A stretch of DNA of 24,355 nucleotides from a virus (IMGVR_UViG_3300027728_000090:1-24355); one strand, 5' to 3'; positions 118 to 24,219 are shown, numbered from the stretch's first letter. Numbers and translations are program-made. The notes: generated by a model from the letters alone, not told the origin.

Positions 118-304
118 GACCATCCATAAGATACAAGTGGTGCAAGCCTACATCCACCATAAAACTGGTAAGCAGGTGCAGATAGTATTCAATAATCCTA
201 TGAGGGTGCAACAACATCTAGCCATGTTAGATCATGCATACATGATAGCGGGTGGCTTTAAAAACAATAACAGTAATGAAGCTAATATAGGTAAAGAGAA
301 GTAA
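107..304 (+). CDS. Small hypothetical protein (65 aa)
   Basis: Unrecognised 65-residue protein wedged between the terminase end (11-base overlap) and the first tail gene (TAATG overlap at 302-306). Its middle is basic and His-rich, around the segments IHKIQVV and YIHHKTGKQVQIVF. It ends with a polar Asn/Lys-rich tail. No signal peptide, membrane segment or catalytic motif is visible. Overlap with both neighbours and the absence of a competing frame support translation in the late operon. Bases 283-293 (TAATATAGGTA), inside its 3' end, resemble part of the 14-base motif seen at 7306, 9681 and 12274, but here they are coding. A role in packaging or tail assembly is only a guess from position. 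Confidence 0.6.
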   Translation: MHSETIHKIQVVQAYIHHKTGKQVQIVFNNPMRVQQHLAMLDHAYMIAGGFKNNNSNEANIGKEK

Positions 305-4670: not shown

Positions 4671-6857
4671 ATGAATGAAGTAGAGATACCTATAAAATTA
4701 ACAGGAATTGCAGCCCTTAAGGCAGAGCTAAAGGACTTAAAAAATCAAATGGCTGATGCTGTTAACCCTGATGAGTTTGCTGCACTTGCTGATAAGGCAG
4801 GTGATGTACAGAAAAAAATAAATGCAGTTAATACTTCTATATCTAGCTTTAAGAAAGGTAGTAACCTTGACCAAGCTAAGGCTTCATTTGAGGGGCTTAC
4901 TTATTCAATAAATGCTTTAGATTTCACAAAAGCTGCAAAACAATCTCAAAATCTAAAGCAAGTACTAGGTGAACTTAAGCCATCAGATTTGACTAAGCAA
5001 TTTACAGACTTTGGTTCTACCATTAAAAATATCGGAGGGGTTTTCCTTAACCTAGGCAGACAGCTACTCTCGAACCCCTATTTTTTGGTGGCAGCTGTAA
5101 CTATTGCTATTGTGGCTGCAGTGGCTTTGGTTTTGCAAAAATTTGGTAAACTTCAAATGGTTATTGATATCTTAATGATACCAGTTAATGCTTTAATACA
5201 AGCCTTCAAAAATCTGACCGATTGGATGGGGCTTACATCTTTTGCTGCTGATGAAAATGCTCAAAGAGTCGAAGCTGCAAATAAGAAAATACAAGAAAGC
5301 TCACAAGAGAGAGCCAAGTCTACAGATAGTGCTCTAGCTCATGAGATAAGAATGGCTAAGATAGCAAATAAAGATACCACTTACCTTGAGCTACAAAAGT
5401 CGATGGTAGCACAGCGTGAAGCATACATACGTATAAAGGCAAACCAAAAAGAAATACTAAGTAAGATGCATGATACTTCTAAGGAAGGGATAGCAGCACG
5501 AAAAAAACTTAAGGACCAAATTAAAGCAGAAAATGAACTAATTAAAGCAGGGGTGCGAGAACGTGAAGCTATTAGAGCTCAGTCAGTAGTAGATGCTAGT
5601 AAGCCTGATAAGGTTGATAAGCCTGTAGGTGGTGGTGGTGGTGGTGGTAGCTTTGATGATGGCGCAAAGAATAGACTAGCAGCACAAAGAGCCTTTGCTG
5701 ACTTTGAGATCAGTATTATTAAGGATGCAGGTGAGAGAGAGATAGCTACAGTCAATGAGAAGTACAAGAGGATGCAAGAGGACCTAGTTAAAGATAAGGA
5801 TAAGACTAAAGCAGAAAAGCAACGATTTACACAAATATACTTAGCACAGCAAATAGATGAGCTTGACTTACTAGCAAAAAATAAGGCGAAGACTGAGGCT
5901 GATAACCTACTAGCAGGTGATAATATGATAGCTGAGCTTAGACTATCTATGATGGTGGATGGTACCGAGAAAGAGCTAGCCATGACTAAGAATAAATATG
6001 ATAAGCTAAGGAAGGCAGCACTTGATAATATAACTCTTACAGAAACTCAGAAGGCAGAACTTACAAAGATATACAATGAGCAGGAAGTAGCTGAAAATAC
6101 TAAGCGGACAGAAGCTAAGATAGCAGCAGATACCAAGGCACAGGTAGACCTACTAGCTTCACTGCAAGCGCAAGATGTAATAGCACAAGAGGCACGTAAA
6201 GCTAAGTTAGCTAAGGACCTTGAGACTGCTAACAATGATGCTGCTACTATTAAGGCTATCAATGATAAGTACCAAGCTGAAAGTGTCAAGATGGAGAATG
6301 ATGCTGCAAATGCTAAGATAGATGCTGCTCAACGTGAAAGGGATGCTAAAATAACACTAGCCAGTGATATTGGTAAGGGTATTACAGATATAGGTAACAT
6401 GCTAATTAAGGACCAGGCTAAGGCTGCTAAGTTAAATAAGGCTGCTGCACTTTTTCAATTAGGTGTAGACACTGCTAAGGCTATCTCAGCTTTAGTAGCA
6501 GCTGCTAACAGTAACCCATTAAATGGTCTAACAGCAGGAGGTGCAGGTATAGCTCAGTATGTAGGAGGTGCTATACAGATAGCTACCAACATGGCTAAGG
6601 CTAAGCAGATACTTTCTAACCCTGCAGGTGCAAGTGGTGTAGGAGGTGGAGGAGGTGGAGGTGATACAGCAGGATCTAACACTGCTACTGTAGTGCCACA
6701 AGGTCCTAACCTCTTCGGTAGTGCTAACACCGGTAACACAATGAGTGCAGGAGGAGTTACTGATACTAACATGACAGTTACTGCTGTAGTATCTGAAACT
6801 CAAGTAACTAGTGTACAGAATAAGATAAACAGAATTAATAAATCAGCAGAATTATGA
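4671..6857 (+). CDS. Tail tape measure protein (728 aa)
   Basis: Clear tape-measure architecture. The N-terminus is helical and charged. A strong hydrophobic segment lies at residues 137-156, with a second amphipathic one at about 161-178. A long Lys/Glu/Ala/Gln-rich coiled coil runs from about 195 to 570, interrupted by a seven-Gly linker near 320. An Ala/Gly-rich hydrophobic region covers about 590-650, and a second seven-Gly stretch precedes a polar C-terminus. Tape measures set tail length and are ejected to help DNA cross the membrane; the hydrophobic segments fit that. It follows the 961-residue tail protein by one base and overlaps the next gene by four bases (ATGA). Its 728 residues imply a moderate-length siphovirus tail. 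Minus-strand frames inside it are shadows of its coiled-coil coding bias. Confidence 0.9.
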   Translation: MNEVEIPIKLTGIAALKAELKDLKNQMADAVNPDEFAALADKAGDVQKKINAVNTSISSFKKGSNLDQAKASFEGLTYSINALDFTKAAKQSQNLKQVLGELKPSDLTKQFTDFGSTIKNIGGVFLNLGRQLLSNPYFLVAAVTIAIVAAVALVLQKFGKLQMVIDILMIPVNALIQAFKNLTDWMGLTSFAADENAQRVEAANKKIQESSQERAKSTDSALAHEIRMAKIANKDTTYLELQKSMVAQREAYIRIKANQKEILSKMHDTSKEGIAARKKLKDQIKAENELIKAGVREREAIRAQSVVDASKPDKVDKPVGGGGGGGSFDDGAKNRLAAQRAFADFEISIIKDAGEREIATVNEKYKRMQEDLVKDKDKTKAEKQRFTQIYLAQQIDELDLLAKNKAKTEADNLLAGDNMIAELRLSMMVDGTEKELAMTKNKYDKLRKAALDNITLTETQKAELTKIYNEQEVAENTKRTEAKIAADTKAQVDLLASLQAQDVIAQEARKAKLAKDLETANNDAATIKAINDKYQAESVKMENDAANAKIDAAQRERDAKITLASDIGKGITDIGNMLIKDQAKAAKLNKAAALFQLGVDTAKAISALVAAANSNPLNGLTAGGAGIAQYVGGAIQIATNMAKAKQILSNPAGASGVGGGGGGGDTAGSNTATVVPQGPNLFGSANTGNTMSAGGVTDTNMTVTAVVSETQVTSVQNKINRINKSAEL
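5628..5648 (+). repeat. GGT x7 microsatellite coding a poly-Gly linker
   Basis: Seven consecutive GGT codons in the tape measure gene encode seven glycines between two coiled-coil blocks. A second poly-Gly tract using mixed GGA/GGT codons lies at about 6642-6662. The pure GGT run could slip during replication in units of one glycine, which would keep frame. Confidence 0.85.
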
Positions 6858-7288
6858 ACAGTCTACAAGCAATAGTAAACGAGATAACAGCCTTCTATAA
6901 TGCACACTTACAGGTACAGAAGGTAGGTAGTGACTTTAAGGAACAGATGTACAACTTCTGTACTAAGAATGAGAAGTATCCTTTGGTATATATTGTGCCT
7001 AGTGGAGTGATACCAACTGAGAACACTACAGAGTTTAGCTTTGACATTTACTGCTATGATATCATACAAAAGGATAGAGCTAACATCATAACTATTTTAA
7101 GTGATACACAACAGATACTTAGTGATCTTAATGTGTACTTTAATGATAGCTCAGACTTTAGCTTTGATGTGGTAGGAGTGCCTACATTCTCACCCCTCAA
7201 TAATGATCTACTAGATTATGCTGCAGGGTATCAGATGAGTATCACATTAACAGTAAATGATTGGACTGATTGTGCAGTGCCAATTTAA
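6854..7288 (+). CDS. Putative tail-completion/tail-terminator protein (144 aa)
   Basis: Overlaps the tape measure by four bases (ATGA). It has a helical N-terminus (about 1-35) followed by alternating beta strands, including TTEFSFDIYCYDIIQKDRAN near residues 58-77 and a strand-rich C-terminus with LLDYAAGYQMSITLTV. Size and fold pattern fit the small tail-completion or tail-terminator proteins that cap the tail tube, and I recall similar proteins in Bacteroidota phages with the same F-D-x-Y-x-Y-D core. Such genes usually sit near the head-tail junction genes, so its place after the tape measure is unusual and part of the unusual order of this genome. The family call is tentative; a virion or assembly role is likely. 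Confidence 0.5.
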   Translation: MNSLQAIVNEITAFYNAHLQVQKVGSDFKEQMYNFCTKNEKYPLVYIVPSGVIPTENTTEFSFDIYCYDIIQKDRANIITILSDTQQILSDLNVYFNDSSDFSFDVVGVPTFSPLNNDLLDYAAGYQMSITLTVNDWTDCAVPI

Positions 7289-7305
7289 ACAAATGACTTT
7301 TATAA

Positions 7306-7319
7306 TATAATATAGGTAT
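7306..7319 (+). promoter_or_regulatory. Conserved 14-base late motif, copy 1
   Basis: TATAATATAGGTAT lies directly before the ATG at 7320, in a 31-base gap between genes. The identical 14 bases occur at 9681-9694 and 12274-12287, again at a gene start. It resembles an AT-rich -10-like element more than the host TAnnTTTG box. It may be a phage late promoter or operator, or a translation-initiation signal; function is inferred only from position and exact recurrence. Confidence 0.55.
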
Positions 7320-7955
7320 ATGGCTAATGGATGGTGGGGTGATTGGAGACCCTCTTTACCTGCTCACACAGGAGACTTACAGGCAACAGATTTGATAGAG
7401 TGTACTTCCATTATAGGAGGGCTTCCTGTCAATACTGCTATTACAGGCACTCAAATTATAGCAGCTGCTAGTGGTGGTGGAGGTGCTTTATACTGCTCAT
7501 CTGCCGTAACAATAGTAACAGCAACAACTAATGAAACTTTGATAGCTTCTGTGCCTATCCCTACTACAATAACCAATGCTATGCTTCGCTCATCTTTTAC
7601 TGTAAGAGTAACAACTTTAGGTGGTGCTGCACCAAGAACACGAATAAGAATAGGTACTGTAGCTAGTCCATCACTTGCACAAATAACAGCTTCAACTCAA
7701 ATAGCTACTAATGCAATAGGAAGTTTAGGGATGGTATCCATCTATAGGACTATGCCTGTAATAGGTGGTGCTTTAGGAGACATAAAAGCTCTTGCACCCG
7801 CAAGTAATGCTAATGCTGACTATGGTCAGTTAGCTGCTTTTACTGTTACTCCTAGAGACTTTACTGCTCAGCAATATTTATACTTTACAATTACAAATAA
7901 TACACTAACTGCAGTAACTGAAAGTTATGGAGTGCTAGTAGAAATAATACAATAA
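7320..7955 (+). CDS. Putative tail fibre / virion surface protein (211 aa)
   Basis: Thr/Ala/Gly-rich, beta-prone protein. The N-terminal 45 residues include WWGDWRPSLP and an ITGTQIIAAAS segment followed by a Gly-rich linker (GGGG) at about 53-56. The rest resembles a compact all-beta C-terminal domain. I recall this layout, a short conserved N-terminal anchor, Gly hinge and beta domain, in virion proteins of Bacteroidota phages that may be receptor-binding or decoration proteins. The start at 7320 follows the conserved 14-base motif, suggesting a separately controlled transcript. It ends in a TAATG overlap with the next gene. No enzymatic residues are apparent. A decoration protein or minor head protein are alternatives. 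Confidence 0.45.
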   Translation: MANGWWGDWRPSLPAHTGDLQATDLIECTSIIGGLPVNTAITGTQIIAAASGGGGALYCSSAVTIVTATTNETLIASVPIPTTITNAMLRSSFTVRVTTLGGAAPRTRIRIGTVASPSLAQITASTQIATNAIGSLGMVSIYRTMPVIGGALGDIKALAPASNANADYGQLAAFTVTPRDFTAQQYLYFTITNNTLTAVTESYGVLVEIIQ

Positions 7956-8425
7956 TGGGAAGATACGCTAATACAGGTGAGTTTAATGTGCTATATCCTA
8001 CACGTAGGAAAATGGCAGCCATATTAAAGAGAATAATTATGAGTAATGGCCTATTTCAAGAGGGCACACTAGTAGATAGTATCAGAATAAATGCCAAGGT
8101 ACCTACACTAGGTTACATAGAAATTGAGATCATTGCCATGTATTACTTTATCTATCTTAATAATGGGGTGCGAAAAACTAGTAACAAATATGGCCCTAAT
8201 AGTGGATCTATACCACCGTATGATTTAGTAAGACAGTTTACTCAAGAGCTAGACAATGCAGGTATAACTATTGAGATATACTCGCAGTACACTGAATGGG
8301 TTACTAAAAAGTATCCCATTATGGACATAGCTAGAATTTTTCAAGGCAACAAGTCAATAGTTTACTCATTCATACCTATTGAACCACCTGCAGGCTTTAT
8401 ACCAGGATACCCATTAGATGTCTAG
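7955..8425 (+). CDS. Putative neck / head-tail joining protein (156 aa)
   Basis: Begins at TAATG overlapping the fibre-like gene and ends inside the 3' end of a minus-strand gene (12-base tail-to-tail overlap). An N-terminal basic helix (about residues 15-33, YPTRRKMAAILKRIIMSNG) is followed by GTLVDSIRINAKVP and a strand-rich segment with YYFIYLNNGV. This helix-then-'xxSIRI' layout resembles HK97 gp10-like neck proteins that join head and tail. The C-terminus is Pro- and aromatic-rich. I cannot assign the family with certainty, but a small soluble head-tail connector fits the context better than an enzyme. Confidence 0.45.
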   Translation: MGRYANTGEFNVLYPTRRKMAAILKRIIMSNGLFQEGTLVDSIRINAKVPTLGYIEIEIIAMYYFIYLNNGVRKTSNKYGPNSGSIPPYDLVRQFTQELDNAGITIEIYSQYTEWVTKKYPIMDIARIFQGNKSIVYSFIPIEPPAGFIPGYPLDV

Positions 8426-9139
8426 CTCTTTTTTCATGGCTAATATATTAAATACATAGGTAAGGGGTAGCCTACCTACCTTCTCACTCTTAGTTATATC
8501 ACCATTGGTAAGGGTATAGATAGTACGCTCCCATGACCACTTAGCACTCTTACCCTCCTCTTCTATCTCCTTCAACTCTTCAGGGCTTAGCTCTATCTTC
8601 TCATCATCTGTGAGCTTATCATCTGCATCTACAAATAGGTTACGATAATTATCTAAGAACTTATCTCTAAACTTCAAGTACTCAGGGATGATACCATAAA
8701 CATCTGTAATAGGTAAGTCCAAAAACTGCTCAGCTCTAGTATACAATTCATACTCATAGCCTTCCATCTCTATATCACCCCACTCCCCTGCCTTAGTTTG
8801 CTTGTACAGGATGGCACATATCTTATCTAAATTTGTGACGTAGTTATCATTAAAAAAGTAGTCGAGGTCTATGTACTCAAATAGGGTAAGCTGTGATAAG
8901 GGCTTAATGGTGTAGTGTAGTAGCTTGTGCTTATATCTATTGTGTGGCTGTGAGGTAGCCCAACTTAACTGATTAATATAGCTGATCATATCATCTATAT
9001 CAAGCTCCTCTATCACCTCTATAGGCTCATCACTTAATATAGATAGTATCTCACTATTAAAGTGGTGTTGCCTATCTATTATAGATATTTCTATAAAATT
9101 TTCAACAGTTACATCACTCCACTGCTTCGGTAGGTACAT
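8414..9139 (-). CDS. Putative tail assembly chaperone-like protein B (241 aa)
   Basis: Minus-strand gene in an otherwise + strand structural region. Its N-terminus (LPKQWSDVTVENFIEISII) matches the layout of the upstream minus-strand protein (IPNRIEELTIEQFENISEI), so the two look like paralogues. The pattern 'W-x-x-[IV]-T-x-E-x-[FY]-x-x-I' is one I associate with siphovirus tail assembly chaperones. The middle is acidic, with EELKEIEEEGK near 189-199, and the C-terminus has WSWERTIYTL and a final helix. It starts 26 bases inside the upstream gene, in another frame, so expression may depend on coupling or frameshifting. A chaperone for the tape measure is the inferred role. I have no direct proof, and another assembly function is possible. 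Confidence 0.5.
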   Translation of the reverse strand: MYLPKQWSDVTVENFIEISIIDRQHHFNSEILSILSDEPIEVIEELDIDDMISYINQLSWATSQPHNRYKHKLLHYTIKPLSQLTLFEYIDLDYFFNDNYVTNLDKICAILYKQTKAGEWGDIEMEGYEYELYTRAEQFLDLPITDVYGIIPEYLKFRDKFLDNYRNLFVDADDKLTDDEKIELSPEELKEIEEEGKSAKWSWERTIYTLTNGDITKSEKVGRLPLTYVFNILAMKKELDI

Positions 9140-9650
9140 TCTCCACTTGGTTTTTTATCTTGTTAGCAATGAACATAATATAAGGGATAGCTATACATGC
9201 CTTAAGTTTACTAATATTTTTAGCTTTTAGTTTTAGGTGTGCATCTGCATAGTGCTCTGTAACAGTAAGGTGATCAGCCTTAAACATAATAGCTAGTATT
9301 CCAGAGATATATCCTTTAGGTTTGTTAATAGCTATAGTTTCAATCAGCTTAGTATCACGTACTGTGAGCTTTAACTGTGCAGTGTATGTAAAGCCATCAA
9401 GCGCTATAGTTTCTACCACAGGATACTCAGTCTTAGGCTGCTCATTAAATTTTTTAACAATATCAATAAAATCAGCCACATCATAATCAAAGAACTCACT
9501 CTCAGGGATACCTAAGCTAGCAAAAATTTGCAGGTGTCTATCAATGTTATCTATCTCTTTGTTATTAGATATCTCACTGATATTCTCAAACTGCTCAATA
9601 GTCAGCTCTTCAATTCTGTTAGGGATCTCCCTTCCTAAAATAGTTACCAT
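9114..9650 (-). CDS. Putative tail assembly chaperone-like protein A (178 aa)
   Basis: First gene of the minus-strand pair, starting 14 bases after a good TAnnTTTG box on that strand. The first 70 residues contain IEELTIEQFENISEI and DVADFIDIVKKFNEQ, matching in spacing the start of protein B. The remainder is mixed alpha/beta and Lys-rich, with no membrane or catalytic motif. Tail chaperones commonly occur as a short protein plus a longer frameshifted product just before the tape measure. Here a short A and longer B overlap by 26 bases, and codons ATA AAA AAC contain the classic heptamer A AAA AAC shortly before the stop. A tail chaperone is the best fit, but the antisense orientation is unexpected. 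Confidence 0.5.
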   Translation of the reverse strand: MVTILGREIPNRIEELTIEQFENISEISNNKEIDNIDRHLQIFASLGIPESEFFDYDVADFIDIVKKFNEQPKTEYPVVETIALDGFTYTAQLKLTVRDTKLIETIAINKPKGYISGILAIMFKADHLTVTEHYADAHLKLKAKNISKLKACIAIPYIMFIANKIKNQVENVPTEAVE

Positions 9651-9664
9651 ATTTAATTTTTTTA

Positions 9665-9672
9665 CAAATATA
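9665..9672 (-). promoter_or_regulatory. Minus-strand -7 promoter element (TATATTTG)
   Basis: Read on the minus strand, TATATTTG fits the Bacteroidota -7 consensus TAnnTTTG and is followed by an A/T-rich 14-base leader and the ATG of chaperone-like protein A. A TTTG lies upstream at a spacing of 24, a little long for the -33 box. It sits between divergent genes and beside the + strand 14-base motif, so the two transcription signals nearly overlap. Confidence 0.5.
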
Positions 9673-9680
9673 TGAATAAT

Positions 9681-9694
9681 TATAATATAGGTAT
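9681..9694 (+). promoter_or_regulatory. Conserved 14-base late motif, copy 2
   Basis: TATAATATAGGTAT ends within the ATG at 9693 (motif ...GGTATG). It is identical to the copies at 7306 and 12274. It precedes the protease and capsid genes. Its presence favours 9693 over the longer in-frame start at 9672, because the alternative start would make the motif coding. Confidence 0.55.
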
Positions 9695-10643
9695 GGCAAA
9701 AGATAATTTACCTGTATACAAAATTACTATTGATCCTGAATACTCTGAAAATGGGGAGGACTTAGGTATAGAACAAATAGCTTTTACATCCACTCCTGCT
9801 ATCAAAGTAATGGGTATGGCTTTCAATAGCCAGGTTAAGCCTATGATATTTACAGATGATATTAAGTATCGCATAGTAGCACCTGCTTTAATCCCAATGG
9901 AGATATATAGAAAGGATGATGAGGATGGTAAAGAGTACTATGTTAAGTTTACAATAGAAGAGATAGAGAAAATTCATGCAAAGTTTATGCGTGATATGAG
10001 TAACAAGGATCTCTTTAACCTAGAGCATGATACTGATAAGACTGTACCTGCTTATGTATTGGAAGCATGGATAGTAGATACTCCCAAAGAGGATAAAGCC
10101 TATTCTAGTTTTGGGATAGAGGTGCCTGAGGGGACTCTAATGGTTACAGCCCAGGTAACAGATAAAGAATACTATGCACAACTGGTAGCAGATGGGCAGG
10201 TAGGTTTCAGCATAGAAGGATATCTAGGTATGAAGCTCAAAGAACAGCAACAACTTAAACTAAATAATATGAATAAATTACCTGATGGTGAACACTTAAT
10301 TGACGGCAAAATCTACGTTGTAGTTGATGGTGAGATCACTGAAATTAGAGAAGAAGAAGTAGTAGTAGAAGAGGAGGCAATGTCTGATACAGTAGTAGAA
10401 GAGGAGGAAGTAGTAGAAGAGGAAACTATGGCTGTAGATCCTGCTATGGATGCTGAGGCAATACTAGAAATAGTACGCCCATTAATTACAGAACAAGTGG
10501 ATGCTCTTGTGGCTATGATAGCTGATTTAAAAAATCAATTAGAAGAGTCTTTAGTAGTAGAAACAGAAGAGGAGTTAGAAGAGGCTGTAAAGATGAGTGT
10601 ACAGCAAAAATTAAGTTCATTTAATAAATTTAACAACCAATAA
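9693..10643 (+). CDS. XkdF-like prohead protease with acidic scaffold-like tail (316 aa)
   Basis: Residues 1-180 fit the XkdF-like phage serine protease family (peptidase S78-related), which cleaves the scaffold and capsid during prohead maturation. Visible landmarks are FNLEHD with a candidate catalytic His112 and VGFSIEGYLG with a candidate Ser173, numbered from the 9693 start. After about 190 the protein becomes strongly acidic: Glu/Val repeats at about 220-246, then a helical, coiled-coil-like segment to the end. This suggests a protease-scaffold fusion. The major capsid gene follows 15 bases later. I chose 9693 because it matches the position of the repeated 14-base motif; the in-frame ATG at 9672 would add seven residues (MNNYNIG) and overlap the minus-strand promoter. 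Confidence 0.75.
   Translation: MAKDNLPVYKITIDPEYSENGEDLGIEQIAFTSTPAIKVMGMAFNSQVKPMIFTDDIKYRIVAPALIPMEIYRKDDEDGKEYYVKFTIEEIEKIHAKFMRDMSNKDLFNLEHDTDKTVPAYVLEAWIVDTPKEDKAYSSFGIEVPEGTLMVTAQVTDKEYYAQLVADGQVGFSIEGYLGMKLKEQQQLKLNNMNKLPDGEHLIDGKIYVVVDGEITEIREEEVVVEEEAMSDTVVEEEEVVEEETMAVDPAMDAEAILEIVRPLITEQVDALVAMIADLKNQLEESLVVETEEELEEAVKMSVQQKLSSFNKFNNQ
10361..10423 (+). repeat. Three short direct repeats coding acidic Val-Glu blocks
   Basis: AGTAGTAGAAGAGGA occurs at 10361, 10391 and 10409 within the protease/scaffold gene, coding V-V-E-E-E-like units. The repeats expand the acidic scaffold-like tail and could recombine or slip. Confidence 0.75.
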
Positions 10644-10658
10644 AAACAAACAAACAAA

Positions 10659-11603
10659 ATGAGAAAATTAAGATTTGATTTAAACATTGATGCTTCTGCA
10701 CTATTAGCACCAAACGCTGATGCGTTCTACGCACAGGCTTATCTTTCAGGTAGTGAAATTCCTGATAACTTCCGTACTTTACCTGGCATTAAGTACAAAA
10801 CTAAAATTGGTACAGTTACTTTTGGTACAGGCTTATTAGCTACATCCCCTTGTAACTTCCCTAACCTTAACACTGATGACTTAAGCTCTCATGAAGTAGA
10901 CGTATGTGCTCTTTCTGCTATGGCTCAAGTTTGTCAATTTGACTTAGAGCAGTCTTTTGTTTCTTTGCAAATGGCAGCAGGATCTAATGGTGATTTCACA
11001 GTAGCATCTTTCTTTAGCTTCTACTGGTCTGAGATGGCTAACGCTATTGCAGGACAAATTGAGTCTTTAAGATGGCAAGGTGATACCTTATCTGTTAATC
11101 CACAACTTGCTTTGTGTGATGGTTATGAGAAAGGATTAGCTGCTTCAGTTGTAGCAGGTGATGTTATCAATGGTGGTACAGGTGGTATCACTACGTTTAC
11201 AGGTGTAGCTGGATTAGGTGCTAAATTAGCAGCTGCTTTTGCTTTGGTTCCTGCAGCTATTGCTTCCCGTACTGCTGACTTGCGTATCTACATGCCTACT
11301 CAATTGGTTAATATCTACCGATTAGGTGTAGCTTCAGGTAACACTAATGCATACATCACTCAGGATCTAGCTTTGACTTACTTAGGTATCAAAATAGTAA
11401 TTTGTCCAGGGATGTCAAATGATACTTTTGTAATTACTTTGAAAGATAACCTTATCTATGCTTTTGATGGTGAGGGTGACTCTTCAGACTTACGTGCTGT
11501 GAACTTAGCAGATACTGTTGCTGAGCCTGTAATCAGAACTCGTGCAAACATGAAAGTAGGTTTCAGCTTTGTTAATCCTACAGATATCGTTTACTACGCT
11601 TAA
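10659..11603 (+). CDS. Major capsid protein (314 aa)
   Basis: Follows the protease/scaffold gene and is preceded by an A-rich leader (AAAACAAACAAACAAA) typical of strongly expressed Bacteroidota genes. The protein begins MRKLRFDLNIDASALLAP. It has no membrane segment and shows the mixed alpha/beta composition, with hydrophobic Ala/Gly-rich core near residues 170-205 and a beta-rich end (RTRANMKVGFSFVNP), of HK97-fold capsid proteins. Codon use is visibly shifted to forms such as GCT, CGT and TTC compared with neighbours, as expected for an abundant virion protein. A GC-rich hairpin terminator follows directly, which would separate or attenuate its transcript. I recall similar capsid proteins in Bacteroidota siphoviruses. 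Confidence 0.8.
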   Translation: MRKLRFDLNIDASALLAPNADAFYAQAYLSGSEIPDNFRTLPGIKYKTKIGTVTFGTGLLATSPCNFPNLNTDDLSSHEVDVCALSAMAQVCQFDLEQSFVSLQMAAGSNGDFTVASFFSFYWSEMANAIAGQIESLRWQGDTLSVNPQLALCDGYEKGLAASVVAGDVINGGTGGITTFTGVAGLGAKLAAAFALVPAAIASRTADLRIYMPTQLVNIYRLGVASGNTNAYITQDLALTYLGIKIVICPGMSNDTFVITLKDNLIYAFDGEGDSSDLRAVNLADTVAEPVIRTRANMKVGFSFVNPTDIVYYA

Positions 11604-11614
11604 TACTAACTCAT

Positions 11615-11638
11615 AAGGGGGGGCAACCCCCTTTATAT
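11615..11638 (+). terminator. Hairpin terminator after capsid gene
   Basis: AAGGGGG (11615-11621) pairs with CCCCCTT (11627-11633) around a five-base loop, GGCAA, followed by TATAT. The stem is strong and sits in the 49-base gap after the capsid stop. With only a short T tract, partial read-through into the tail-tube gene is plausible. Confidence 0.8.
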
Positions 11639-11652
11639 AAAACATATAAATC

Positions 11653-12198
11653 ATGCCAACAACATGCCAGGCCTTAGAGGCCATTTTAAAAAGTTGCGAT
11701 AATAACAGTGGTGGTATCTATGGTATATGGATTAACCAACAAGATGAAATTTTATCTATCACTCCTGCAGACCCATCTGCAGGTTTAGGATGGTCGATAA
11801 CAGCTATTACTTTAGTAGCTCTTGCTCCATTATTTAAAAACTACTACATTCGTAGAAATACATCTAGCTTTACAGAAGAGGCTGCTATTGACTTAATCAA
11901 TGGATCATCTTTTGTTACTTCTACTATTAACTTAATGTTTCATAGACGTGAAGCTGATAAGTCAAGAGCTATCAAAATTTTAGGATCAGGACAGCAGTAT
12001 ATTACAGCTATTGTTTTGGATGCTAATGGTAAGTATTGGTACTTCCCTTACTTGCAAGTTACAGGTGTAGCTGAAGGATCAGGAACTGCTCGTGCAGATG
12101 GTTCTAAATATGCTGTAACTTTGTTAGGTGAGAACGAATACTTAGCTTATGAGGTTACTATGTCAACTGCTGCACTTGCTGCAATCGGAGTATCTTAA
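11653..12198 (+). CDS. Putative major tail (tube) protein (181 aa)
   Basis: Bounded by hairpin terminators on both sides and using the same preferred codons as the capsid gene, both signs of high expression. The N-terminus (about 1-30) contains two Cys and a Gly-rich turn. The C-terminal half has the strand pattern IKILGSGQQYITAIVLDANGK, WYFPYLQVTGVAEGSGTA, then YAVTLLGENEYLAYEV. I associate this layout (…G..Q.YITAIV.D.NGKYW…) with tail tube proteins of Bacteroidota siphoviruses. Tube monomers stack around the tape measure, so a gene beside the capsid and far from the tape measure is noteworthy but seen in rearranged genomes. A head decoration protein is the main alternative. Confidence 0.6.
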   Translation: MPTTCQALEAILKSCDNNSGGIYGIWINQQDEILSITPADPSAGLGWSITAITLVALAPLFKNYYIRRNTSSFTEEAAIDLINGSSFVTSTINLMFHRREADKSRAIKILGSGQQYITAIVLDANGKYWYFPYLQVTGVAEGSGTARADGSKYAVTLLGENEYLAYEVTMSTAALAAIGVS

Positions 12199-12221
12199 TA
12201 CGCTTTAATACTATCAAAATT

Positions 12222-12248
12222 AGCCCTGCATATTGTGGGGCTTTTTTT
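12222..12248 (+). terminator. Rho-independent terminator after tail-tube gene
   Basis: AGCCC (12222-12226) pairs with GGGCT (12238-12242) across an 11-base loop, followed by a run of seven T. This is a canonical intrinsic terminator and implies that the following gene needs its own start signal, which the 14-base motif at 12274 could supply. Confidence 0.85.
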
Positions 12249-12273
12249 ATTTCTAAACATTTTGAAGTAAACA

Positions 12274-12287
12274 TATAATATAGGTAT
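12274..12287 (+). promoter_or_regulatory. Conserved 14-base late motif, copy 3
   Basis: TATAATATAGGTAT overlaps the ATG at 12286. It lies 25 bases after the terminator T-run, exactly where a new promoter is needed, and no TAnnTTTG box is visible in this gap. A TTTG occurs at 12261-12264. This copy is the strongest argument that the motif is a promoter rather than chance. Confidence 0.6.
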
Positions 12288-12636
12288 GATATACATTGAA
12301 CAGGGAGTAATTAACCAGGTAGTGCTAACCTTAACAGAGGTTACTACTGTACCCACCCCTCACTATCTCTTTGCTTTCACTAATGAAATGAATACTACTT
12401 CTAGCACTCAGTTATTTACCACTGCAGATACTAGCTTATGGCCTGAACGGTACAATCTTTTTGTACTTAATGAGCCTGTAGATATTACCTTGTTACAAGG
12501 GCAGTTTATATATCAGATTTATGAGAGCTCAGTACCCTATGTACTACCTTTATCTATTGCACAAACCACAGGAGTGGTAATAGAAGAGGGTAGAATGGTG
12601 GTAAGTGGGCCAGTAGGCACCTCAATATACGATTAA
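12286..12636 (+). CDS. Hypothetical late protein (116 aa)
   Basis: First gene after the terminator at 12222-12248 and the third copy of the 14-base motif, with the portal gene two bases downstream. The 116 residues are beta-prone, with repeated hydrophobic strands (VVLTLTEV, HYLFAFTNEM, QFIYQIYES) and a Val/Gly-rich end. No signal peptide, membrane segment or enzyme motif is visible. I recall small proteins of this kind (with an RYNLF-like segment) beside portal genes in Bacteroidota phages, so a virion or head-assembly role is plausible, but no function is known to me. Confidence 0.6.
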   Translation: MIYIEQGVINQVVLTLTEVTTVPTPHYLFAFTNEMNTTSSTQLFTTADTSLWPERYNLFVLNEPVDITLLQGQFIYQIYESSVPYVLPLSIAQTTGVVIEEGRMVVSGPVGTSIYD

Positions 12637-17809: not shown

Positions 17810-17970
17810 ATAGAGTATGGCTAGAGGATAGCGTAGAGCCTGAAGGTGGCTCATGGTGGAATTGCTACCTAGGCAAAGATGGCAAGCTGCATGATTACAT
17901 CTTCACAGATGAGCAAGCAGATACTCCCCAGTGGTATATTGATAACGGTTACATAGTAGAAGAGGTATGA
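17806..17970 (+). CDS. Small acidic Trp-rich hypothetical protein (54 aa)
   Basis: Coupled by ATGA overlaps to both the upstream gene and the HNH gene. In 54 residues there are about twelve acidic and three basic residues and four Trp (W5, W17, W18, W43). The sequence has a Gly-rich SVEPEGGSWWNCYLGKDG core that looks like a small beta fold. It is not recognised as a known family. It belongs with the other early micro-proteins; a host-directed role would be a guess. Confidence 0.55.
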   Translation: MNRVWLEDSVEPEGGSWWNCYLGKDGKLHDYIFTDEQADTPQWYIDNGYIVEEV

Positions 17971-18578
17971 ATATCAAAGCAGAAGTGATTAAAAGATACC
18001 CATTTGAGAGTACAGCTGTAATAGCTAAGGAATTAGGGATAACAATATCAAAGGTGTATAATATCGCATGGGCCTATAAGATACATAAGGACATCAACTA
18101 CCTTAAGACTGCAGCAAGTGGTAGGTTTATAGAGCCGAATGTAGCTAATCAATATAAGCCAGGGCACACTCCTCACAATAAAGGTAAGCAAATGCCTGAA
18201 GATATATATCATAAGGTAAGAGGTACTATGTTTAAGCCAGGGCACAGGCCTATGAATTGGAAGCCTAATGGTACAATAAGCTATAGACCTGAGAAATGTG
18301 GTAGATTATACGCTTATATTAAGCTAAGTGATAGTAAGTGGCAACTGTACAGCAGATATGTGTATGAAGCTAATTATGGGGTAATACCTAGAGGGCATAT
18401 AGTAATACACATAGATGGTAACAATACTAACCATGATATAAGTAACTTAAAAGCAATTACCATGAAGGAAAACATGCTACGTAACACCATCCATAGATAC
18501 CCTGAAGAGATACAACAACTAATTAAATTAACCAATAAACTAAAAAACAAAACAAATGGCACAAAACAAACTAAGTGA
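17967..18578 (+). CDS. HNH endonuclease (203 aa)
   Basis: The C-terminal half has an HNH_3-type nuclease core: Y-x-E-A-N-Y-G-V-I-P-R-G-H followed by VIHIDGNNTNHDISNLKAIT (His148, Asn152, Asn155, Asn160). An N-terminal helix-turn-helix at about 15-40 (STAVIAKELGITISKVYNI) could direct DNA binding, and a basic Gly/Pro linker (NKGKQMP, PGHRPMNWKP) joins the two. Enzymes of this kind nick or cut phage DNA, often as free-standing homing endonucleases. It sits among small early genes, overlaps the next gene by 23 bases, and is not next to an intron or a split gene that I can see. The first His of the classical H-N-H is not obvious. Confidence 0.82.
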   Translation: MNIKAEVIKRYPFESTAVIAKELGITISKVYNIAWAYKIHKDINYLKTAASGRFIEPNVANQYKPGHTPHNKGKQMPEDIYHKVRGTMFKPGHRPMNWKPNGTISYRPEKCGRLYAYIKLSDSKWQLYSRYVYEANYGVIPRGHIVIHIDGNNTNHDISNLKAITMKENMLRNTIHRYPEEIQQLIKLTNKLKNKTNGTKQTK

Positions 18579-18798
18579 TCTACGTGATCATATCTTCATG
18601 GCCCTAGAGAGACTAGCTGATGAAAATTTAACACCTGAACAAATTAATGCTGAAGTAGAGAAGTCAAAGGCAATAGCTCAGCTAAGCTCTGCTATTATAT
18701 CTTCTGCTAAGGTAGAGATAGACTTCATTAATGCTACAGGAGTGCTTGAGAGCCAGTCTGAGCTCTTTAAGTCAGTAACCCAAAATAAACTAAAATGA
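18556..18798 (+). CDS. Small conserved helical phage protein (80 aa)
   Basis: Begins MAQNKLSDLRDHIFMALERL after an A-rich stretch (AAAAAACAAAACAA) within the end of the HNH gene. It is predicted as almost all helix, with ENLTPEQINAEVEKSKAIAQ followed by a helix with SSAKVEIDFINATG. I recall small phage proteins with the same 'DLRxHxFxxLExL … KAIxxxxxxIIxSAKVEIDF' pattern in many phages, without a known function. It ends in an ATGA overlap with the DnaA-like gene, so it may act with replication or its control. Confidence 0.65.
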   Translation: MAQNKLSDLRDHIFMALERLADENLTPEQINAEVEKSKAIAQLSSAIISSAKVEIDFINATGVLESQSELFKSVTQNKLK

Positions 18799-19157
18799 CT
18801 AACCTAGAATTAGTGCAGGATTACATAGTAAAGTACAAACTACAAGAGCACTCAAAGTATCAGAAGTTAGTCTATATGAGGTATTACCTGTACAATGTAC
18901 TGTACAAAGATGGTATGGGCTTATCTGCTATAGGTAGAGTATTTAATAGGACACATGCAACTATCTACAATGGCCTTAAGAAGCATGACGATTACACTAG
19001 CTACAAAGATAAGGTATACATTCTTTATACAGCTGATTTAGCTAATAAATTTGTTAAAAAGCAAAAGATTAAACCCTTGAAGGATATGGTGTTAGAACTT
19101 TCTAGCATGGAGCAAGTTGAGTATCTTCAGACCATGATTGCTAACCATTATATATGA
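18795..19157 (+). CDS. DnaA-domain-IV-like helix-turn-helix protein (120 aa)
   Basis: Residues 41-64 (MGLSAIGRVFNRTHATIYNGLK) match the shape of DnaA domain IV, including the R-x-H-A-T-x-Y signature (R52, H54, A55, T56) that in DnaA contacts the DnaA box. N-terminal helices (about 1-38) and a Lys-rich C-terminal region flank it; there is no AAA+ domain. It lies directly before the candidate origin with repeated 20-base units, so it may bind these repeats and start or regulate replication. The match is by pattern only; a general phage transcription regulator is an alternative. Confidence 0.65.
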   Translation: MTNLELVQDYIVKYKLQEHSKYQKLVYMRYYLYNVLYKDGMGLSAIGRVFNRTHATIYNGLKKHDDYTSYKDKVYILYTADLANKFVKKQKIKPLKDMVLELSSMEQVEYLQTMIANHYI

Positions 19158-19242: not shown

Positions 19243-19348
19243 GAAATATGCTTAAACCTATACCTACACTATTTATTAGCCAATGACGATAACTTTATTT
19301 GCGACATTATTACCAATTTAACGACATTATTACTACATTTGCGACATT
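19158..19348. other. Candidate replication origin / control region (191 bp non-coding)
   Basis: The longest intergenic stretch in the window. It combines the inverted repeat, an AT-rich segment (about 19242-19300) and the three 20-base repeats. It sits between a DnaA-like DNA-binding protein and a primase/helicase, the usual place for a phage origin. TACATTTG at 19334-19341 resembles a -7 box, but it lies inside the repeats and has no good -33 partner. The origin call is inferred from layout only. Confidence 0.5.
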
Positions 19349-22465: not shown

Positions 22466-22473
22466 TATATTTG
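22466..22473 (+). promoter_or_regulatory. Promoter -7 element (TATATTTG) before the ERF gene
   Basis: TATATTTG, followed by a 22-base leader rich in A and C (…AATTAAACTACAAACCA). The leader strongly resembles that of the first early gene (AATTAAAACAAACCACA at about 17031), suggesting the same kind of early unit. The -33 side is weak (TGTG at 22444). Confidence 0.65.
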
Positions 22474-24201: not shown

Positions 24202-24219
24202 ATAATTGCACTATCTTTG
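24189..24219 (+). promoter_or_regulatory. Promoter (TTTG-N19-TATCTTTG) overlapping the last gene start
   Basis: TTTG at 24189-24192, a 19-base spacer and TATCTTTG at 24212-24219 match the host consensus very well. The element begins inside the preceding gene. The ATG at 24225 is only five bases after the -7 box, so the transcript would be almost leaderless. GGGCACA (24219-24225) and TGTGCCC (24242-24248) form a 7-bp inverted repeat around that start. Confidence 0.7.

Follow-up and report, generated by a model that had tools for sequence, protein, structure and literature searches.

The window analyzed here is a 24,355-nt stretch of DNA from a group of uncultured phages that we infer to infect Bacteroidota. 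Four copies of a 10-mer, TAATATAGGT, lie on its plus strand at sites that we call D, A, B and C, and boxes of the type used by the host, whose primary promoter in Bacteroidota is TTTG / TAHHTTTG (PMC6847099), precede other genes:

263..266, plus strand: AACA partner of site D, 20 nt 5' of the core
283..292, plus strand: site D core TAATATAGGT, 11 nt before ATG 304 and within the end of the open reading frame 107-304
7288..7291, plus strand: AACA partner of site A, 20 nt 5' of the core
7308..7317, plus strand: site A core TAATATAGGT, before ATG 7320
8414-9650, minus strand: divergent block of two genes (9650-9114 and 9139-8414)
9664..9666, plus strand: (t)ACA partner of site B, overlapping the divergent host-type box
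9665..9672, minus strand: host-type box TATATTTG of the divergent block, in 34/34 distinct upstream sequences
9683..9692, plus strand: site B core TAATATAGGT, before ATG 9693, at the head of the protease and capsid genes
12222..12242, plus strand: terminator-like hairpin with a T tail, shortly before site C and at the end of the capsid block
12256..12259, plus strand: AACA partner of site C, 20 nt 5' of the core
12276..12285, plus strand: site C core TAATATAGGT, before ATG 12286, at the head of the portal block
22466..22473, plus strand: host-type box TATATTTG, preceding the Erf-like gene (22496) by 30 nt; present in 96% of the 48 distinct sequences upstream of that gene
24212..24219, plus strand: host-type box TATCTTTG, preceding the first gene in its block by 13 nt; present in 94% of the 79 distinct sequences upstream of that gene

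The block headed by the box at 24212 runs past the end of the window and, in relatives, contains the genes for a candidate sigma factor and the terminase; the sigma gene itself is not contained in the window. The minus-strand block, whose two genes are of unknown function, lies within the late region, converges with gene 7955-8425 and points away from site B. Further features are an HNH endonuclease-like gene in the early region (17967-18578, PF13392) and, at 10361-10420, the repeated AGTAGTAGAAGAGG, which encodes an acidic Val/Glu-rich stretch of the protease-like protein.

A preliminary description of this DNA had reported an exact 14-mer, TATAATATAGGTAT, directly in front of three late-gene start codons. 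We confirmed these copies at 7306-7319, 9681-9694 and 12274-12287, all on the plus strand, and found no further exact copy on either strand of the window. Their placement is also as claimed: ATG 7320 touches the motif, while ATG 9693 and ATG 12286 overlap its last AT. Based on Markov models of orders 1-3, only 0.002-0.003 exact copies were expected on both strands compared to the three found, which bears out the claim that they are not expected by chance. With up to three mismatches allowed, 15 matches were seen compared to 13.7 expected, and because such looser matches are at chance level, only exact copies count. Viral contigs scanned for the exact 14-mer belonged mostly to unrelated phages, in which the next base was G (completing an ATG) in about one-quarter of cases, as expected by chance, so that only relatives of the window are informative. 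The three 14-mers are thus real, but the conserved unit is the 10-mer TAATATAGGT rather than the 14-mer, and the list of three sites, correct as far as it went, overlooked the fourth core copy at 283-292. At site B, an in-frame ATG (9672) lies upstream; because several relatives lack it, 9693 is the likely start of this gene on comparative grounds.

We collected 80 loci by similarity to the capsid protein (10659-11603), ignoring the motif, and further loci by similarity to the candidate sigma factor. In genes matching those at 7320, 9693 and 12286, TAATATAGGT is kept 0-2 nt before the ATG or GTG, also in cases of strongly diverged proteins. Searching 22 contigs for the core revealed four sites per longer contig on a single strand, with D located ~7 kb upstream of A, and ten near-complete relatives (27.8-31.6 kb) contained four exact copies each, on the coding strand only; in contig G018, site A is doubled and the D copy has one mismatch. 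Across 23 contigs (583,606 bases), the core occurred 78 times on the coding strand and never on the opposite strand, compared to a mean of 4.8 in shuffled sequence for both strands together; the corresponding numbers of exact cores for 80 sigma-centred loci were 57 and 0. When counts were anchored at gene starts, the core (at most one mismatch) was present in 52/52 distinct upstream sequences at D, 31/35 at A, 30/30 at B and 37/37 at C, compared to 2 of 765 upstream regions at 22 other genes, both belonging to gene 7955, the second gene of the A block. The core is present in 80-100% of the distinct sequences upstream of each of the four block-head genes and is nearly absent before other genes. 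These loci were fetched by MCP or sigma similarity and their sequences are related, so that the counts are not independent events and the argument is instead that the same box recurs at four non-homologous places while spacer and flanks change. Scatter of the copies in relatives, named beforehand in the preliminary description as an outcome that would refute its claim, was not what we found. The sites are confined to the heads of structural blocks and to one strand, as is characteristic of late promoters, and, judged by this comparison, the TAATATAGGT boxes are a well-conserved class of putative late promoters.

A few of these contigs have features of their own. G018 (31.6 kb; loci L222 and L223) contains two diverged copies of genes 6854 to 9650 and of site A, one near each contig end, reflecting either a real duplication or a mixed assembly. 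In locus L315 (site at ~10336), the A block lacks its usual head gene or has another in its place, yet the late box still heads the block, before gene 7955. Direct terminal repeats of 73-127 bases in G002, G003 and G005 suggest that these are complete genomes of ~28.5 kb, in which case the window is probably short of some 4-5 kb holding the sigma and terminase genes.

The late sites have a two-part architecture. In a class-balanced profile, AAC(A) was located 20 nt 5' of the core at nearly all sites (19 nt at B in one clade), separated from it by a spacer of variable sequence, and each of the four window sites has this partner, as AACA or (t)ACA, at a distance of 20 nt. The preliminary description had stated that the usual -33 partner was missing, which is incorrect given this element at nearly every site; nor does its TATAAT-like box hold, as the TA preceding TAATATAGG is not conserved. 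It was right about a terminator before one copy, namely the hairpin and T tail just 5' of site C. The core is non-palindromic and its orientation to the downstream gene is constant. At most sites, the distance from AAC to ATG is 30-32 nt. Site D differs between clades: its start codon abuts the box in several of them and is displaced downstream by 11 nt in the clade of the window, where the box is kept and sits within the preceding reading frame. Among distinct upstream sequences, we found no other conserved promoter-like sequence at the heads of the late blocks.

Host-type boxes have the opposite distribution and form a second promoter class. TAHHTTTG was conserved upstream of the minus-strand block, where a host-type promoter is present in all distinct relatives, and upstream of the Erf gene and the sigma-terminase block (34/34, 96% and 94%, as listed above). 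It was found for 38% of primase genes and, without a fixed position, 33% of capsid genes, and in only 0-4% of upstream regions at the four late sites. The latter do not have the signature of the Bacteroidota sigmaA promoter, showing an invariant TAATATAG instead of TAHHTTTG. Some host-type boxes (at 19334, at 24212 and, in relatives, upstream of gene e82) start only 11-15 nt before the ATG; because of this short distance, near-leaderless mRNAs may be made from early genes of these phages as well.

In relatives, a protein of 175-180 aa is encoded between the position of the window's right end and the terminase, and was full-length in 20/22 contigs examined. Searches of 28 members against NCBIfam returned mostly sigma factors as top models, all below curated cut-offs (PRK12520 for 18/28 and TIGR02985 for 13/28, best E-value 3e-4). 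No sigma-70 family profile was matched above its curated cut-off in the window's group, Pfam gave no sigma match for the candidate, and a search of PDB sequences with the candidate's profile returned nothing convincing. An annotated phage collection contained no match to the MCP or the candidate sigma, and a search of genome contigs found none encoding the candidate. AF2 models of modest confidence (pLDDT 70 and 78, low pTM of 0.41-0.42) have helical N- and C-terminal parts joined by a low-confidence linker at ~74-94. When these were compared to the PDB using Foldseek, the best matches were mostly sigma factors, with E-values no better than ~3e-3; sigma4 domains were matched by the C-terminal part (TMt ~0.6), among them that of E. 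coli sigmaE in complex with -35 DNA. On these observations, the protein is likely to be a sigma factor of ECF type, a type defined by having sigma2 and sigma4 as the only domains, with a linker of <50 residues. Consistent with this type, AAC or ACA occurs at a nearly fixed distance at the predicted -35 position of all four sites, and likewise in the relatives of the cultured phage P12024S described below. Two other traits of ECF systems were not found: the -10 element of the window group is TAATATAGG rather than one with CGT, which is seen in the P12024S group (CGTTAATA), and there is no sign of positive autoregulation, the sigma-encoding block having a conserved host-type box at its head and no late box. 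A phage RNA polymerase as the reader of the late sites was set aside: no gene for a T7-like single-subunit or a multisubunit enzyme was recognized, and relatives have a primase-like protein as the product of their largest early gene.

Nonlabens phage P12024S (P12024S/L, NC_018271) is a cultured phage with portal, Erf, exonuclease, primase and a sigma gene upstream of the terminase in the same order, and its portal protein is 24% identical. The sigma protein, gp33, passes the Pfam model for sigma-70 region 2 (PF04542), and an hhalign comparison between the window group's sigma family and the P12024S sigma was not significant. AAC-N17-CGTTAATA-like boxes occur at six gene starts of P12024S, matching the ECF hallmark of AAC and CGT (PMC8103513), with the box start 12 nt before late ATGs; all five coding-strand copies of CGTTAATA have this placement, and TAATATAGG is absent from its coding strand. 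Metagenomic relatives of the P12024S sigma retain the AAC and CGTTAATA boxes. The two groups are alike in the distance from AAC to the -10 element and in boxes that abut late ATGs, but differ in the -10 element itself and in the position of the ATG, 12 nt after the box start in P12024S and 10 nt in the window group. The late box therefore differs where the sigma factor differs. We found no paper on these promoters of P12024S.

Taken together, TAATATAGGT with AACA ~20 nt upstream most likely serves these phages as their late promoter, read by a phage ECF-type sigma factor and giving near-leaderless mRNAs, and the phage-specific late promoter of this kind proposed in the preliminary description is strongly supported by the comparative evidence. 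The host polymerase would first transcribe an early block, including the gene for the 175-180-aa sigma factor, from a TAHHTTTG promoter. The phage sigma would then bind the host core RNA polymerase and direct it to D, A, B and C, one site for each late block, with AAC(A) recognized by region 4 (-35 element) and TAATATA by region 2 (-10 element). Because the 30-32 nt between AAC and ATG correspond to what an ECF sigma factor needs between its -35 element and the start point, leaderless or near-leaderless mRNAs are expected: 5' ends would fall on the first start codon or no more than a few nucleotides away from it, except for a leader of ~10 nt at site D of the window. The fit is tight, as typical ECF or Bacteroidota geometry places the start at the A of the ATG or 1-2 nt past it. 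The predicted sigma -35 element of site B coincides in part with the divergent block's host -7 box; the two promoters could therefore exclude each other, and late initiation would shut the block off. That all of these hold at once (a late program run wholly by the phage's own ECF sigma through a four-promoter regulon, leaderless block-head mRNAs, the switch at site B, and AAC kept while the -10 element changed between CGTTAATA and TAATATAGG) is a tentative proposition, plausible and slightly improbable as a whole.

An alternative is that the host primary sigma holoenzyme reads the late sites with the help of a phage HTH activator, in which case TAATATAG would be a TAHHTTTG -7 box that has decayed and requires activation. 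The two sequences have T1, A2, T6 and G8 in common, the AACA partner could serve as the activator site, and the phage encodes other HTH-like proteins, such as that at 18795-19157 with a weak HTH_38 match, which could be the activator. However, A5 and A7 are invariant in all distinct late sites, whereas the host boxes found in these phages have an invariant T there, as the pattern itself prescribes, which argues for a different specificity rather than decay; moreover, an ECF-like sigma is present, and P12024S, with a different sigma, has the hallmark CGTT in its -10 element. We consider the activator unlikely.

The preliminary description had also raised an initiation signal read by the ribosome. 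The box does abut the start codon at A, B and C, and at D in several clades, in a phylum without Shine-Dalgarno signals (PMC6847099), but practically all other gene starts, including those of the capsid and portal genes, are boxless, and the D box stays in place when the start codon moves 11 nt. A spaced AAC at a nearly fixed distance is also a feature of promoters, and one copy comes after a terminator; a ribosomal signal is therefore very improbable. Short, identical and few boxes at block heads might equally be bound by a repressor or another DNA-binding protein without being promoter elements, an explanation to which we assign a minimal chance given their single orientation to the downstream gene (78 versus 0), their non-palindromic core and bipartite -35/-10-like spacing, and the lack of another conserved promoter-like sequence at these heads. 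The background of looser matches and the common ancestry of the relatives could suggest an artefact of AT-rich DNA, but with the exact copies so far above expectation, and the core kept at four non-homologous places while flanks, spacer and downstream proteins diverge, the probability of this is negligible. Two known promoter types were also set aside: a T4-late-type promoter, consisting of TATAAATA alone, because of the spaced partner, and the AR9-type late promoter AACA-(6N)-TA/G (PMC5312081), in which the AACA distance differs.

Phages phiEco32 and 7-11 provide experimental precedents for a phage sigma factor that reads a few late promoters (PMC8948821). As proposed here, Salmonella phage 7-11 uses a small sigma factor with region 4 (gp47) on host core RNA polymerase; its bipartite late promoters, only a handful in number, stand at block heads, and its early promoters are for the host sigma (PMC8948821). 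Its late promoter is GTAAtg-(16)-aCTA and it is an enterobacterial podovirus (PMC8948821), whereas here AAC(A) is combined with a TAATATAGGT that all but adjoins the start codon. In phiEco32, a single phage sigma, gp36, recognizes the consensus tAATGTAtA, which is similar to the TAATATA core, and transcription from its middle and late promoters starts 6-8 bp downstream (PMC8948821). In contrast to the -35-like partner and C-terminal HTH found here, gp36 has no region 4 and its promoters no -35 element (PMC8948821). Compared to the Bacteroidota promoter, which is present at the early blocks of this phage, the late boxes have an invariant A at two TTTG positions and an AAC partner that is closer in (PMC6847099). 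We found no paper in the open-access literature on a phage-encoded sigma factor and its promoters in Bacteroidota.

Gene control in phages of Bacteroidota has been little described, and the present analysis provides a complete two-class promoter map from sequence: host-type early promoters, one phage-specific box at four late blocks and a candidate sigma factor, of which the four late sites would be the targets. The cultured, syntenic P12024S is an immediately testable system. If the late mRNAs are leaderless, this would be unusual in a phylum whose studied member has mostly leadered, Shine-Dalgarno-less mRNAs. Sigma factor and promoter diverging together in two phage lineages would also constitute a natural data set on the change of -10 specificity.
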